Part shown: in pieces, positions 39,531 through 47,846 of the stretch
Position numbering within the stretch: position 1 is the first letter of the stretch
How the letters are laid out: every line of letters begins with the position of its first letter
NCBI GenBank assembly: GCA_947852905.1
Contig: CANTVF010000001.1
Coordinates: forward strand, 310,001 to 374,000
Direction of reading: 5' to 3'
Source: an uncultured Tidjanibacter sp.
GTDB taxonomy: Bacteria > Bacteroidota > Bacteroidia > Bacteroidales > Rikenellaceae
Length of the DNA: 64,000 nucleotides
Notes under the pieces: generated by a model
Databases searched by the model: none
The model's input: only the letters and a program-made list of their open reading frames with translations
Told to the model about the DNA's origin: nothing
Translations under genes and position numbers: made by a program

Positions 39531-39687
39531 CGTGTTTTTTGGAAATTCTCTATATCAGATTATTGAATTAGGCCCCTTGAAAAAAGGCTCATTCTTCTAT
39601 ATAAATTAAAAATTAAAACGCAATAACTATGAACATTTTTTAAACCGATTTTATGACTCAATTTTGTGTTGCAAAATCATCCGACTT

Positions 39688-41106
39688 ATGATTGTTGATA
39701 ACCCTACATATAGCGATATGTGGCAGAACTGCTTGACCCAAATCCGGGAACAGACCTCCCAGGAGGAGTTCACCAAATGGTTCAAGCCCATAGTTCTCGT
39801 CAATTTCGACGGCACCACATTGCAGTTGCGGGTACCGAACGAATCATACGTATACCATATAGAGAAACACTATATTCCTTTCCTGCGGCCGATCATCTAC
39901 CAGACGTTCGGTCAGAAAACCAAATTGCGCTATTCGATACCCAATAACGAACAACACCAACACGCTTTTCAACAGGAATCGCACACGGCCACTCCGATGT
40001 CGAAATACATGGAGCAGACCAATACGGCAAATATAAAAAATCCGTTCGTTATACCCGGCATAAAAAAGATCGTAATAGATTCGCAACTCAATCCGAACTA
40101 TACGTTCGACAATTTCGTCGAAGGCGATTGCAATAGGCTGGCGCGTTCGGCAGGCTTGTCGATAGCGGTAAATCCCGGTATGACCGCGTACAATCCGCTT
40201 TATGTTTTCGGCGATTCCGGTCTTGGAAAAACGCATGTGGCTCAAGCCATAGGCATGGAAATCAAGCAGCGTCATCCGGATCTTCAGGTGCTGTACGTTT
40301 CGATGAACAAATTCCAGGCCCAATACACATCGGCCGTATTGAATAAGGAGGTCAACGACTTCATACATTTCTATCAGATGATAGATGTGTTGATAATAGA
40401 CGACATACAGGAGCTTTCCGGCAATAAGGAAAGCACGCAGAATGCGTTTTTCAACATATTCAATCATCTTCAGCTCGCAGGCAAACAGTTGATATTGACA
40501 TCGGATAAACGGCCGGTAGAGCTTAAGGACATTAACGACCGTCTACTCACGCGATTCCGCTGGGGGTTGGCTGCCGAACTGACCCCTCCGGATTTCGACA
40601 CTAAAGTGAAAATCATCCGCAACAAGGCCGCAAGACTTGGTGCCGATGTTCCGGACGACGTCGTGGCTTTCTTTGCGGAAAACATAAATGCCAACATACG
40701 CGAAATAGAAGGGGCGCTGTCGTCGCTCGTGGCAAATGCGACGCTTTTGGGTAGGAGCATTACGATTTCGCTTGCCAAAGAAATTATCAAAGTATACGTA
40801 AAGTTTACTCAAAAAGAGATAACTATAGATCACATACGCAATGTGGTTTGCGATTTTCTGAATGTGGATCAGGCGGTATTCGACTCTGCAAAACGCACGA
40901 GGGAGGTAGCTCAGGCACGTCAGATTGCCATGTATCTTTGCAAACAGCATACGAAAGCACCATTGGCAACTATAGGCTCGGCTATAGGAGGAAAAAATCA
41001 CGCCACCGTTTTGCATGCATGCAAAACCATTTCCAATCTGATAGAAACGGATAAAGCGTTCAGGCAAACCATGGAAGAGATAGAGCGCAAGGTATTGGCA
41101 CGTTAG
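39688..41106 (+). CDS. dnaA: Chromosomal replication initiator DnaA
   Basis: 472 residues. Domain I (to about 85) carries MWQNCLTQIREQTSQEEFTKWF; domain II is a Gln/His-rich linker (85-115); domain III is the AAA+ module with Walker A GDSGLGKT (175-182) and Walker B VLIIDDIQEL near 235; domain IV ends with the DnaA signature APLATIGSAIGGKNHATVLHACK. The ATG at 39688 is preferred over in-frame codons at 39664. A DnaA-box-like TGTTGATAA lies inside codons 2-5, and a second copy lies just after the gene, so autoregulation is plausible. Confidence 0.96.
   Translation: MIVDNPTYSDMWQNCLTQIREQTSQEEFTKWFKPIVLVNFDGTTLQLRVPNESYVYHIEKHYIPFLRPIIYQTFGQKTKLRYSIPNNEQHQHAFQQESHTATPMSKYMEQTNTANIKNPFVIPGIKKIVIDSQLNPNYTFDNFVEGDCNRLARSAGLSIAVNPGMTAYNPLYVFGDSGLGKTHVAQAIGMEIKQRHPDLQVLYVSMNKFQAQYTSAVLNKEVNDFIHFYQMIDVLIIDDIQELSGNKESTQNAFFNIFNHLQLAGKQLILTSDKRPVELKDINDRLLTRFRWGLAAELTPPDFDTKVKIIRNKAARLGADVPDDVVAFFAENINANIREIEGALSSLVANATLLGRSITISLAKEIIKVYVKFTQKEITIDHIRNVVCDFLNVDQAVFDSAKRTREVAQARQIAMYLCKQHTKAPLATIGSAIGGKNHATVLHACKTISNLIETDKAFRQTMEEIERKVLAR
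39693..39701 (-). promoter_or_regulatory. DnaA-box-like site at the dnaA start
   Basis: TGTTGATAA (complement TTATCAACA) differs from TTATCCACA by one base. It overlaps codons 2-5 of dnaA. Confidence 0.4.
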
Positions 41107-41317
41107 CGAACACTGGCTACGAGTTATCAACAATAACGGGCAGAAACGATTGGGTTCCGCCCGTTGCATTTTCGTATTAAAGATATTTTCACTAATTTTA
41201 CTTCTAATTATGCGCGTTTTGTGGACATTGTTGATATTCCGGAATAACAGCGCATTGCAATCGCTATATATAGTATTTGATTAAATTGAATCGATTATAT
41301 AATACACAATCAACCAT
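41107..41317. other. dnaA-recA intergenic region with DnaA-box-like sites
   Basis: 211 bases. It holds TTATCAACA at 41124-41132, a terminator-like hairpin AACGGGC/GCCCGTT (41135-41165), an AT-rich tract (41176-41211), then TGTGGACAT and TGTTGATAT close together (about 41219-41237). The last two are degenerate boxes in reverse orientation. This could serve dnaA/recA control or part of an origin; I cannot tell from sequence alone. Confidence 0.45.
41135..41174 (+). terminator. Hairpin after dnaA
   Basis: AACGGGC (41135-41141) and GCCCGTT (41159-41165) bracket a partially paired 17-base loop, followed by GCATTTTCG. It begins 28 bases past the dnaA stop. Confidence 0.6.
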
Positions 41318-42343
41318 ATGGCAGAAAAGAAAGAAGTCAATGCAGACAAGCTTAAAGTACTGAATGCTGTACTCGACAAAATAGAAAAGGATTTCGGTAA
41401 GGGAGCCGTAATGAGAATGAGCAGCGACAATATAGAAGAGGTGGCAGTCATTCCGTCGGGTTCCATTACGCTTGACATGGCACTCGGAGTGGGCGGTTAT
41501 CCCAAAGGGCGGGTCATTGAAATTTTCGGACCGGAATCGTCCGGTAAAACCACACTTGCCCTTCACGCCATTGCAGAGGCTCAGAAAGCAGGCGGTCTTG
41601 CCGCATTCATAGATGCAGAACACGCTTTCGACAGGACCTATGCACAGGCTCTCGGAGTAGATGTGGACAATCTGTTGATTTCCCAACCCGACAACGGTGA
41701 ACAGGCGCTCGAAATAGCCGACAGTCTAATACGATCCAGTGCAATAGATATCATAGTCATCGACTCGGTTGCCGCTCTTACTCCTAAAGCCGAGATAGAA
41801 GGCGACATGGGCGAATCCAAAATGGGATTGCAGGCGAGGTTGATGTCGCAGGCTCTCCGCAAACTCACGGCGAGCATCAGCAAGACGAAGACCGTATGCA
41901 TCTTCATAAACCAGTTGCGCGACAAGATAGGTGTCGTATACGGCAATCCGGAAACCACTACCGGCGGTAACGCCCTGAAATTCTATGCGAGCGTGCGTAT
42001 AGACATTCGCAAGGCTTCCAGTATAAAGGACGGCGAAGACCAGTTGGGTGCGAGGGCCAAGGTTAAAGTCGTGAAAAATAAAGTGGCGCCACCTTTCCGC
42101 AGGGCTGAATTCGATATAATGTACGGCGAAGGAATATCTAAAGTCGGCGAAATCATAGACCTCGGCGTCGATTTCGGCGTAATCAAGAAAAGCGGTTCAT
42201 GGTATTCATACGGTGACCGCAAACTGGCGCAGGGACGAGACGCTACCAAGGAACTGCTACTGTCCGACGAACCGCTCATGGCGGAAATAGAACAGAAAGT
42301 CCGCGATGCGATGAAAGAGAGCAAAAATCAATCGAAGAAATAA
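41318..42343 (+). CDS. recA: Recombinase RecA
   Basis: 341 residues. RecA forms filaments on ssDNA and performs strand exchange. Walker A is [10 protein letters not shown] (71-80); other marks are [34 protein letters not shown], the L2 loop MGVV-like region [32 protein letters not shown], and the C-terminal domain from about residue 268. It ends with a short charged tail (KESKNQSKK). An almost identical copy of codons 257 to about 311 occurs inverted at 46569-46743 (separate entry). rsh follows 78 bases downstream. Confidence 0.98.
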
Positions 42344-42421
42344 ACAAACGTTCCGACTCGACGGATGCATGAATTCAATGCACCGTCGAGTTGTGAAATA
42401 AACCCAATCTACGATCCCATT

Positions 42422-44626
42422 ATGGCAACAGCCGGTTATACAGCAGAACACGAACTTATCATCAGAGATAGGTTTAACGACCTGCTTGCGTCATGTCAGA
42501 AAATAATAAAAGATGAGAACGACAGGGAGATGATAGACAAGGCTTTCTTCCTTGCGAAGGAAGCCCACAAAGGGGTATTGCGCCGTGACGGCGATCCATA
42601 CATACTCCACCCGCTGTCTGTCGCCAAGATCGTAGTGGACGAGATAGGTCTCGGCGTCAAGTCCGTAGTGGCTTCGCTGCTGCACGATGTGGTAGAGGAT
42701 ACCGAATATACCGTCGAAGAGATAGAGACGATATTCGGCGAGAAGGTTGCCTACATGGTGGACGGACTTACCAAAATGGCCGGAGTGGTCAGCAAGGATA
42801 CGTCGAAACAGGCGGCTTACTTCAGGAAAGTATTGTTGACGCTCTCCGACGATGTGCGCGTGATACTTATCAAGATTGCCGACCGGTTGCACAACATGCG
42901 CACCATGGCGTCCATGCCGCGCGAAAAGCAAATCAAAATATCGAGCGAGACACTCTACCTGTTCGCGCCTTTGGCCTACAGACTCGGTCTTTACAATATA
43001 AAAACGGAACTCGAGGATCTCAGTCTGAGATACCGCTACCCGGAACAGTATTTCGAGATCGTAGATAAACTGAACGAAACAGAGTCCGGACGAAGCGAAT
43101 TCATCGAGAAATTCATAGCTCCTATACGCCAGCAATTATCCGCCAGCGGCATAGACTGCACAATATCCGGACGAATCAAAAGCGTCTTTTCCATCTGGTC
43201 TAAAATGCAGCGGAAGGGTATTGCTTTCGAAGATATTTACGACCTGTTCGCTATAAGAATAGTGTTCAAACCGACGGCACTTATACCGGAAAAATCACAA
43301 TGCTGGCACATATATTCACTGATTACGGATATATACACGCCGAAACCCGACCGTATAAGGGACTGGGTGAATTTTCCTAAGGCCAACGGCTACGAGGCTT
43401 TACATGTTACCGTCATGGGTCCCGACGGCATATGGGCTGAGGTACAGATACGTTCAGAACGTATGGAGGAGATCGCCGAAAGGGGATTTGCAGCCCACTG
43501 GAAATATAAACAGGCACACAGTACGGACGACGAGTTTGACAAATGGCTGAGGGAAGTACGCAACGCGCTGAAAGGGCCGACGGAAGATGCGGTTGAGTTT
43601 TTGGATAATGTAAGACTTACACTGTACACGAATGAGATAGTCGTTTTCACACCCAAAGGTGAACCGCGTAAGATGCCTCAGGGGGCGACCGTACTCGATT
43701 TCGCATACAATATACACACCAATGTCGGCAACAAGGCCATAGGCGCCAAGATTAACCACAAGATAGAGTCTATATTCGAGACACTTACGAACGGCGATCA
43801 GGTGGAGATAATCACATCGGATAATTCCAAGCCTACAATAGAATGGCTCGACCACGTTACTACGGCCAAAGCCAAGCAGTCGATTACGACTTTTCTGAAA
43901 CGTTCACGGGAAAATAACGTGGAACGCGGAATGGAGTTATTCGAAAAACGTATGAGCGAATTCGGAATTATGCCGAGCGGCAGGGTATTCCGTAAAATAT
44001 TGCCTGCATACGAATGTGCCAACAAAGATGAGTTTTACAGTAAGTTAGGCTCCGGAATAATAAATCTCGATGACGTAGAGCCGATACTACGACAGAATTC
44101 CATGAGCAAGGTGCTCAAATTCTGGGACATACAACTAACCAAACCGTTCAAGTCGGGACAGGAAACATTGGTGGTCGGCGGTTCCGATACGGCGGACGGC
44201 AAAGCGGCTAAATTCGTAATAGCGGAAAAATGTAACCCCATTCCCGGAGACGAAATAGTCGGTTATAAAAATCCGGGAAGCAATACTATTGTCGTACACA
44301 AAGCCGGTTGCGAAGACTTGACACGTCTTGCAGCCCAGCATGGAGAGAATATAGTTACAAATATAAAATGGTCGAGCTACAAAGCTGAATCCTATCTTGC
44401 AGAGGTAGAAATACGAGGTATAGATAGGGTGGGAATTTTGGTAGATCTTTCACAGGTCATTACCGTAGAGCTCGGCATCAATATACGTGAATTAATGATA
44501 CAAAGCCACGACGGTATATTCGAGGGCAAGATAAGGGTGTACGTCAAGGATACCGAGAACCTGAATGCGTTACAGGAAAGAGTAGGGCATATCAAAGGTA
44601 TAGAAAAAGTCCAGCGGACCCTGTAA
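42422..44626 (+). CDS. rsh: Bifunctional (p)ppGpp synthetase/hydrolase, RelA/SpoT homologue
   Basis: 734 residues from the ATG at 42422 (MATAGYTAEHEL); an in-frame ATG at 42365 would add 19 atypical residues. Domain order: HD hydrolase with LLHDVVEDTEYTVEEI and IKIADRLHNMRTM; synthetase with RIKSVFSIWSKMQRKG and FPKANGYEALHVTVMGP; TGS (MPQGATVLDFAYNIHTNVG); a zinc-finger-like region; and a C-terminal ACT domain (IDRVGILVDLSQVIT). The intact HD motif and synthetase argue for both activities, controlling the stringent response. It follows recA and precedes a small membrane-anchored protein. Confidence 0.95.
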   Translation: MATAGYTAEHELIIRDRFNDLLASCQKIIKDENDREMIDKAFFLAKEAHKGVLRRDGDPYILHPLSVAKIVVDEIGLGVKSVVASLLHDVVEDTEYTVEEIETIFGEKVAYMVDGLTKMAGVVSKDTSKQAAYFRKVLLTLSDDVRVILIKIADRLHNMRTMASMPREKQIKISSETLYLFAPLAYRLGLYNIKTELEDLSLRYRYPEQYFEIVDKLNETESGRSEFIEKFIAPIRQQLSASGIDCTISGRIKSVFSIWSKMQRKGIAFEDIYDLFAIRIVFKPTALIPEKSQCWHIYSLITDIYTPKPDRIRDWVNFPKANGYEALHVTVMGPDGIWAEVQIRSERMEEIAERGFAAHWKYKQAHSTDDEFDKWLREVRNALKGPTEDAVEFLDNVRLTLYTNEIVVFTPKGEPRKMPQGATVLDFAYNIHTNVGNKAIGAKINHKIESIFETLTNGDQVEIITSDNSKPTIEWLDHVTTAKAKQSITTFLKRSRENNVERGMELFEKRMSEFGIMPSGRVFRKILPAYECANKDEFYSKLGSGIINLDDVEPILRQNSMSKVLKFWDIQLTKPFKSGQETLVVGGSDTADGKAAKFVIAEKCNPIPGDEIVGYKNPGSNTIVVHKAGCEDLTRLAAQHGENIVTNIKWSSYKAESYLAEVEIRGIDRVGILVDLSQVITVELGINIRELMIQSHDGIFEGKIRVYVKDTENLNALQERVGHIKGIEKVQRTL

Positions 44627-45971: not shown

Positions 45972-46415
45972 ATGAAAGATAGGATTGTATATATTATGCA
46001 GGATAAAAACATATCCGCAAATAGGCTTGCGGAGCTTATGGAGATACAGCCGTCAAGTATTTCGCATATATTATCCGAACGTAACAAACCAAGCCTTGAT
46101 TTCGTGACAAAGTTACTCACTGTATTTCCGGAGATAAATCCGGATTGGTTGATATTCGGCACCGGGCATATGCTTCGCGATCGAAAAGATTTAATTGAAA
46201 CGAATGATGCGAATGATAAGTCTGATAAGAATGAAGTGGCTTCGAAAAATTCAGCGCATCAACCTCTGTCGGTGTCAAGTTCCGAAAATCCGAGTCGTCC
46301 GCAAGTTGGTGTATCCTTAAAGCCTTCTCAAAATATAGGTAGAGCCATTCGGAAAGTCATGATTTTTTACGACGACTATACGGTCGAATCGTATGATTAT
46401 TTCAAAATTGAGTAA
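45972..46415 (+). CDS. XRE-family helix-turn-helix regulator
   Basis: 147 residues. The HTH is in the first 60 residues: MKDRIVYIMQDKNISANRLAE, then EIQPSSISHILSERNKPSLDFV, with the IFGTG loop INPDWLIFGTGHML that often follows HTHs of this phylum. A polar linker (residues 75-125, Ser/Asn/Asp-rich) leads to a short C-terminal part (RKVMIFYDDYTVESYDYFKIE). It may repress its own region; the GC-rich palindrome at 45888 is a candidate site. The gene is AT-rich compared with the core genes. Confidence 0.85.
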   Translation: MKDRIVYIMQDKNISANRLAELMEIQPSSISHILSERNKPSLDFVTKLLTVFPEINPDWLIFGTGHMLRDRKDLIETNDANDKSDKNEVASKNSAHQPLSVSSSENPSRPQVGVSLKPSQNIGRAIRKVMIFYDDYTVESYDYFKIE

Positions 46416-46531
46416 TTGCTTTTTACCAAGCTTTTATATCTTATTTATCAAAAACAGCTATTCAAAATTCTATTTGAAAATTGGAAACGCACAGCTAAAA
46501 TTCGCCTCGAGGCTTTGAAATATAATTTATA

Positions 46532-46743
46532 TTATGTTAAGTAGTGTATGGAAATAATTCTGTAAGACAGCAATAGTTCTCCTTGGTAGCGTCGTCCCTG
46601 CGCCAGTTTGCGGTCGCCGTATGAATACCATGAACCGCTTTTCTTGATTACGCCGAAATCGACGCCGAGGTCTATGATTTCGCCGACTTTAGATATTCCT
46701 TCGCCGTACATTATATCGAATTCAGCCCTGCGGAAAGGTGGCG
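46532..46743 (-). pseudogene. Inverted partial copy of recA (codons 257 to about 311)
   Basis: Read on the minus strand, bases 46743-46582 match recA 42087-42249. The first 127 bases are identical, one C/T difference (42214) follows, and then a 2-base deletion (GA at 42238-42240 missing); a 2-base insertion near 46580 restores the frame. Past that the match decays, but GAACTATTGCTGTC still encodes the same Leu-Leu-Leu-Ser as recA. The open frame runs from a TAG just upstream of the match to TAA at 46532-46534, ending [19 protein letters not shown]. There is no start or promoter, so it is a fragment. Confidence 0.85.
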
Positions 46744-46930: not shown

Positions 46931-46949
46931 TTGCTATATTTGTTAGCAA
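46931..46949 (+). promoter_or_regulatory. znuA promoter element inside an inverted repeat
   Basis: TATATTTG (46935-46942) is a -7 element, 26 bases before the znuA ATG. It is covered by the inverted repeat TTGCTA-N7-TAGCAA, a candidate operator for a metal-responsive repressor. No good TTG -33 is visible. Confidence 0.5.
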
Positions 46950-46967
46950 ATTCATCCTACGACATAT

Positions 46968-47846
46968 ATGAGAATCTCAGCTACACAAAAAACAGCATAT
47001 ATTATACTGACTATAATTACAATAGCCATATTGTCAGTAATTTATGGTTGTAATCGAGATGTGCGCAAGACGGATAAACAGGTCATAACTGTATCCATAC
47101 CACCCATAAAATATATTGTAGAAGAAATCACATGCGGAGATTTCGATATTAACGTAATACTTCCGCATGGCAGCAGTCCGGAAACCTACTCTCCTACTCC
47201 GCAACAACTGATAGATGTGAGCAAGTCCGATATACTGTTTTACACAGGATTGCTTGACTTTGAAAACGAACTGATGAAACGACTGCCGGATACAGGTAAA
47301 CCTGTATCGTTATCGGTCGGCATGGATTTGATTTCCGATGACGGACACGATCATAATCATAATGGTCTCGGTGTGGATCCGCATATATGGACTTCTCCGG
47401 AACGTTTGAAAATCATGTCAGCCAATATATACGATGCTGTCAACAAACGATTTCCAGATTCGACAAAATATACTACGGCATATTCAAATTTGATAGAGCG
47501 TCTCGATTCCTTATCTGCACAAATCAAAAGGACTTTAAACGAGACATCAACCAAGGTTTTCGTGATATATCACCCGGCATTGACTTATTATGCGGAAGAT
47601 TACGGCCTGACACAGATATCTATCGAAAACGAAGGTAAAGAACCTTCGGCAACTCATTTGAAATCAGTAATAGAAACAATTAATAAGGAGAATATCGGAC
47701 ATATTCTTTATCAACAACAATTTTCGGTTTCAGTAACCGAAGCTGTAAGCAAAGAGACAAATGCTACGCCGATAGAAATAGATCCTCTTGCAGAAAACAT
47801 AGTCGCCGAAATCACCGCAATAACTAACATCATATCAAGCAGATGA
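46968..47846 (+). CDS. znuA: Zinc ABC transporter substrate-binding lipoprotein ZnuA-like
   Basis: 292 residues of the cluster A-I metal-binding proteins. A signal anchor is followed by a lipobox ending in Cys (VIYGCN), so it is a lipoprotein. Metal ligands are in LPHGSSPETYSPTPQQL, VDPHIWTSPE, FVIYHPALTYYAEDYG and near the end in PIEIDPLAEN (Asp). A His-rich loop DDGHDHNHNG, typical of zinc rather than manganese proteins, lies near residue 127. The stop overlaps znuC by 4 bases (ATGA). AT-rich. Confidence 0.88.
   Translation: MRISATQKTAYIILTIITIAILSVIYGCNRDVRKTDKQVITVSIPPIKYIVEEITCGDFDINVILPHGSSPETYSPTPQQLIDVSKSDILFYTGLLDFENELMKRLPDTGKPVSLSVGMDLISDDGHDHNHNGLGVDPHIWTSPERLKIMSANIYDAVNKRFPDSTKYTTAYSNLIERLDSLSAQIKRTLNETSTKVFVIYHPALTYYAEDYGLTQISIENEGKEPSATHLKSVIETINKENIGHILYQQQFSVSVTEAVSKETNATPIEIDPLAENIVAEITAITNIISSR

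Follow-up and report, generated by a model that had tools for sequence, protein, structure and literature searches.

A short, near-identical piece of the DNA-repair gene recA lies in inverted orientation between a dif-like site and a znuA-like gene of an uncultured Tidjanibacter sp., 4.3 kb away from the intact gene. It is probably a dead fragment, recently copied in reversed orientation into this spacer during repair or fork fusion near the terminus, and it is confined to this lineage within the genomes searched. As judged from the sequence comparisons, its source is this species' own recA, and we infer that the copying step occurred near the terminus. The whole stretch of DNA that was analysed, 64,000 nucleotides long, is called the window, and coordinates refer to it unless another contig or locus is named.

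The recA fragment and its distribution

The recA gene of the window (41318..42343, plus strand, 341 aa) is intact and matches NCBIfam TIGR02012 with 562 bits. BLASTN of the two segments aligned 46580..46743 on the minus strand with 42087..42252 on the plus strand, inside recA, with 163/166 identities (E 5e-83). An exact run of 127 nt is shared, the first mismatch being at recA 42214, and the differences in this alignment are one substitution and one 2-base gap. In a repeat search, the source segment and the fragment also came out as the longest inverted pair of the 40.5-48.5 kb interval, with 99% identity over 152 ungapped nt. With these alignments, the near-identical inverted recA fragment of the preliminary description is real, and only its extent had to be corrected, the secure match being slightly tighter than originally given.

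The segment has two matches in the genome, recA itself and the fragment, and no third. Contig C1, 405 kb in size, contains nine self-repeats of at least 45 bases, and in just one inverted pair, that of the fragment and recA, are the copies less than 10 kb apart; those of another inverted pair (77 bases at 87%) are 10,013 bases apart. The GC content of the fragment is 52%, and that of its flanks 28-31%. An open reading frame of 59 aa, opened by an internal ATG, runs across the fragment (46532-46711) and matches positions 1-36 of the 57 positions of Pfam RecA_C.

Beyond the secure match, the similarity possibly continues from 46579 to about 46564 (46564..46579, minus strand), where a 2-base insertion is followed by the codons for ELLLS, differing from recA at synonymous positions only. 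In an anchored extension, the score of this tail was equalled in 20 of 2000 dinucleotide shuffles, which makes the frame-restoring insertion and the synonymous tail, both described before, plausible and not secure. The sequence below 46580 is probably, not certainly, homologous to recA. If it is homologous and diverged, it is at odds with a single very recent copy. At the opposite edge there is no significant extension, as 347/2000 shuffles scored as high.

A DNA search of 23 genomes of the genus, own genome included, gave any match in 11, and the fragment was found in the own genome only (1/23), so it was rejected as a genus-wide feature. The fragment is 98% identical to its own recA, as compared to 75-83% for the ten congeners in which recA was matched, and is consequently closer to its own gene than to that of any listed relative (at most 83%). 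It also groups with its own recA in an alignment with the recA genes of eight relatives. For the family, probably Rikenellaceae, a sample of 200 genomes from a larger group was searched with a 50-residue RecA piece (E 1e-6), a search that would miss recA pieces much shorter than the fragment. One match was present in 175 of the 177 matched genomes, and two matches in the remaining two. In the own genome (G000), the second match is the fragment, in a 70-aa frame, while G176 has two RecA-matching frames of 345 aa each on different contigs. A short extra piece of recA is accordingly found in 1/177 matched family genomes, the own one. The 23 genomes without a match say nothing about its distribution; they include three of the 109 genomes with a completeness of 90% or more and a contamination of 5% or less. 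As no second short copy was seen in the relatives searched (23 of the genus, 200 of the family) and the identity to the own recA is so much higher than that of the congeners, the recent duplication considered earlier is supported.

The dif-like site and the conserved neighbourhood

Some 35 bp separate the fragment from a dif-like site, and it lies between the xre-dif pair and znuA, a position absent from the preliminary description. This site (46518..46544, plus strand) was found by pattern matching as a XerC arm, a spacer and a XerD arm, and we take it to be dif-like on the basis of the XerC/XerD arm consensus. It is the only match in the window at up to 3 mismatches, with 0 expected. At up to 2 mismatches, one copy was found in the own genome and one each in 12 of 59 relatives, against none in the backwards-read control; the site of congener G003 has no mismatch to the search pattern. 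In C1, the peak of the cumulative GC skew falls at C1:341137, and the site, at C1:356518, is 15 kb from it. According to one study, dif sites are characterized by a single copy, an intergenic position and closeness to the GC-skew switch (PMC3091885). The present site is single-copy, lies between xre and znuA, and is near such a switch, and it is likely to be the dimer-resolution site of the chromosome. Five tyrosine-recombinase matches were identified in the own genome, two of them in frames whose lengths, 342 and 303 aa, resemble those of Xer proteins.

G030, a single-contig genome, was sampled at 20 places. Its GC skew is negative in eight of ten stretches between 360 and 1710 kb (the exceptions being those at 810 and 1560 kb), positive in 8/8 between 1860 and 2910 kb, and still weakly positive at 60 and 210 kb. 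Its dif-like site is situated about 4 kb before the contig end, so the sampled switch is near this site but may be as much as a few hundred kb away, a point against the proposed origin at the terminus.

In the window, dnaA, recA and spoT (39664-44626) are found on the same side of the dif-like site, within about 7 kb of it and near the GC-skew turn. Because these genes adjoin both, dnaA appears to be near the terminus instead of the origin.

The fragment is flanked by an XRE/HTH_3 regulator gene (xre, 45972..46415, plus strand, Pfam HTH_3) on the side of the dif-like site and, on the far side of the insertion, by a znuA-like gene (46968..47846, plus strand, Pfam ZnuA, 188 bits). The congener G003 has the same order, dnaA-recA-spoT-hinT-xre-dif-(spacer)-znuA, with one recA match only and none in the spacer between dif and znuA, which contains an apparent decayed coding sequence (read by eye, without a family search). 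The fragment is hence absent from the syntenic spacer of G003, as it is from the other matched family genomes. Since the gene order is the same in G003, it sits between conserved neighbours, and the region can no longer be called accessory, as had been proposed. In another congener, G014, xre and the dif-like site are jointly inverted relative to hinT, spoT and recA (L064 3216-4261). The corresponding locus of G030 (L076 555-3118) has several related small frames in the interval that separates the dif-like site from the znuA match. Some of these share a WQTGSAQ stretch near their start, and direct repeats of up to 639 bases at 90% are present.

The proximity of an xre gene to a dif-like site is itself common in the family. 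In the family loci among L033-L062 and the own window, a dif-like site with at most 3 mismatches is located downstream of an XRE/HTH_3 gene in 12 of 18 cases, counting the own locus and sites no more than about 500 bp from the xre match. Two of the other loci have a site at 4 mismatches and four have none. The relative orientation of both elements is the same in 11 of the 12, the exception being G034. Two further family loci with xre (G004 and G021) showed no dif-like site at up to 4 mismatches, and loci of other families showed one beside xre in 0/12 at the same threshold. A backwards-read control of 30 loci gave five hits at up to 5 mismatches. A linkage beyond the family was rejected, with dif-like hits at up to 4 mismatches in 5/80 loci of XRE relatives (80 kept from 565). 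These hits are L103 (Rikenellaceae; 118 bp downstream, 3 mismatches), L091 (Alistipes; 488 bp, 4 mismatches), L089 (5 kb, 1 mismatch) and the weak L127 and L145; at up to 3 mismatches, the wider loci gave two hits versus one in the backwards-read control. The XRE gene adjoining dif in most family loci examined may merit more attention than the fragment.

Transcription and alternative explanations

An absence of any start or promoter had been claimed for the fragment, which holds only in part. An internal ATG does open the 59-aa frame, and a sigma-70-like match (10 of 12) is present upstream on the plus strand (46474-46501), although at chance frequency only: six such matches were found in the region, another one being at 47037-47010 on the minus strand, versus 7.7 expected from shuffles. 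Using what we take to be the Bacteroidales promoter pattern, a promoter-like pair TTG / TATTTTTG was found for xre at about 45946, TATATTTG for znuA at 46935, with no upstream element in the expected place, and a -7-like element with one mismatch at 46555. A terminator-like site on the plus strand was not found between xre and znuA. The 552-nt spacer RNA has an ordinary fold (z 0.14; 49/100 shuffles fold as well), and the window has a single Rfam hit, a tRNA at another place; the fragment was rejected as a conserved RNA on these two grounds. The antisense read-through from xre suggested previously is possible on paper, given the promoter-like pair and the missing terminator-like site, but nothing shows its occurrence. 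As a trans-acting antisense RNA, a plus-strand transcript across dif and the fragment would reduce RecA by pairing with recA mRNA, with a perfect duplex of up to 127 bases. The xre pair, the element at 46555 and the match at 46474-46501 could serve such a transcript, but with promoter-like matches at chance level, a fold no better than shuffles and the fragment in 1/177 matched family genomes, nothing shows selection, and we regard this role as very unlikely.

The proximity to dif also recalls integrated elements. Microvirus proviruses of Bacteroidetes have dif-like sites on their flanks (PMC3091885), and such Xer-dependent elements use these sites for landing; the fragment adjoins one. It might be what remains of a phage or plasmid, since lost, that entered dif by Xer recombination and deposited host DNA it had picked up; three viral contigs that share 24 bases of the dif-like site exactly, and the apparent decayed coding sequence in the same spacer of G003, point in this direction. 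Unlike such elements, for which flanking duplicated sites are expected, the fragment has no second att-like site beside it: only one dif-like site is present in the window (at most 3 mismatches) and in the genome (at most 2 mismatches). The phage and plasmid collections, searched with the fragment alone, gave only recA-like stretches below 80% identity. A lost element is judged improbable. A mobile-element source was rejected on the records of that search (two phages and six plasmids, all recA-like at 60-80% identity). The three viral contigs (L203, L204 and L205) may themselves be Xer-dependent phages; L203 has a terminase-like frame, as read by eye, and L204 and L205 share frames.

Three explanations concern the repeat pair itself. 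Gene conversion from recA, at a distance of 4.3 kb, could have re-homogenised the core of an older and longer fragment and left a diverged edge. In favour of this, the core is near-identical while the adjoining tail has synonymous differences and two 2-base indels that compensate each other, but the tail has only 16-18 bases and is matched by shuffles at the rate given above, the other side has no significant extension, and no older copy was found in the congeners searched; this explanation is unlikely. An assembly or library artefact was also raised earlier, and the exact run of 127 nt does equal a common largest k-mer of short-read assemblers. An error would however need two junctions, a substitution and a gap distinguish the fragment from recA, synteny with G003 holds on either flank, and the 405-kb contig belongs to an assembly that is 99.94% complete and 0.01% contaminated. 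Because of these differences and this synteny, an artefact has a very small probability as judged from the assembled sequence. Least credible of all is a rare RecA-driven inversion switch, in which recombination between the copies would flip the 4.3-kb segment (spoT, hinT, xre and dif) and alter the recA 3' end. The pair is indeed inverted and encloses dif, and the frame of the fragment stays open, with a predicted RecA of 326 aa instead of 341. Nevertheless, the inverted form was not seen in the one assembly examined, the RecA C-terminal domain would be cut short at its new end, since the fragment covers RecA_C 1-36 of 57, and the pair was seen in one genome only. If true, dif would be reversed and the RecA C-terminus shortened and altered, a recombinase changing itself. 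Gene conversion, a lost Xer element, antisense and assembly error are each less likely than a dead copy.

A possible origin at the terminus

Partial gene duplications and short templated insertions by template switching are a known class of rearrangement. Like them, the fragment is a short, near-identical, inverted copy of nearby sequence with no evident function; unlike them in general, it directly adjoins a dif-like site. For the dead copy, the most likely route is repair in the terminus region, as converging forks and the processing of dimers can produce broken or displaced DNA ends there. DNA synthesis would then have jumped for a short stretch onto recA as a nearby template, running the opposite way, before going back, leaving a 164-bp inverted copy between dif and znuA.

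Lactobacillus delbrueckii ssp. bulgaricus has large inverted repeats of 38-76 kb at its terminus, which have been explained by chromosome rescue after breakage (PMC5345009). Both are lineage-specific inverted repeats at a replication terminus, but there the putative dif is inside the repeat, whereas here the copies comprise 164 bp, with a single dif-like site between them. A search of 20 relative loci, including 13 with a dif-like site, gave no inverted repeat at the threshold used, and since none is comparable, the proposed tie to the terminus has a single example behind it. Direct repeats were found in two of the 20 (L076 and L079). In the open-licence literature, no work on a partial or inverted recA copy was identified by title among the matches listed.

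No function is proposed for the fragment, which is a real but ordinary feature and probably dead. As a dead copy, it represents a small natural record of DNA repair or replication beside dif. Should remnants of this kind turn up next to dif in further strains, template switching during fork fusion could be put to the test in Bacteroidales.
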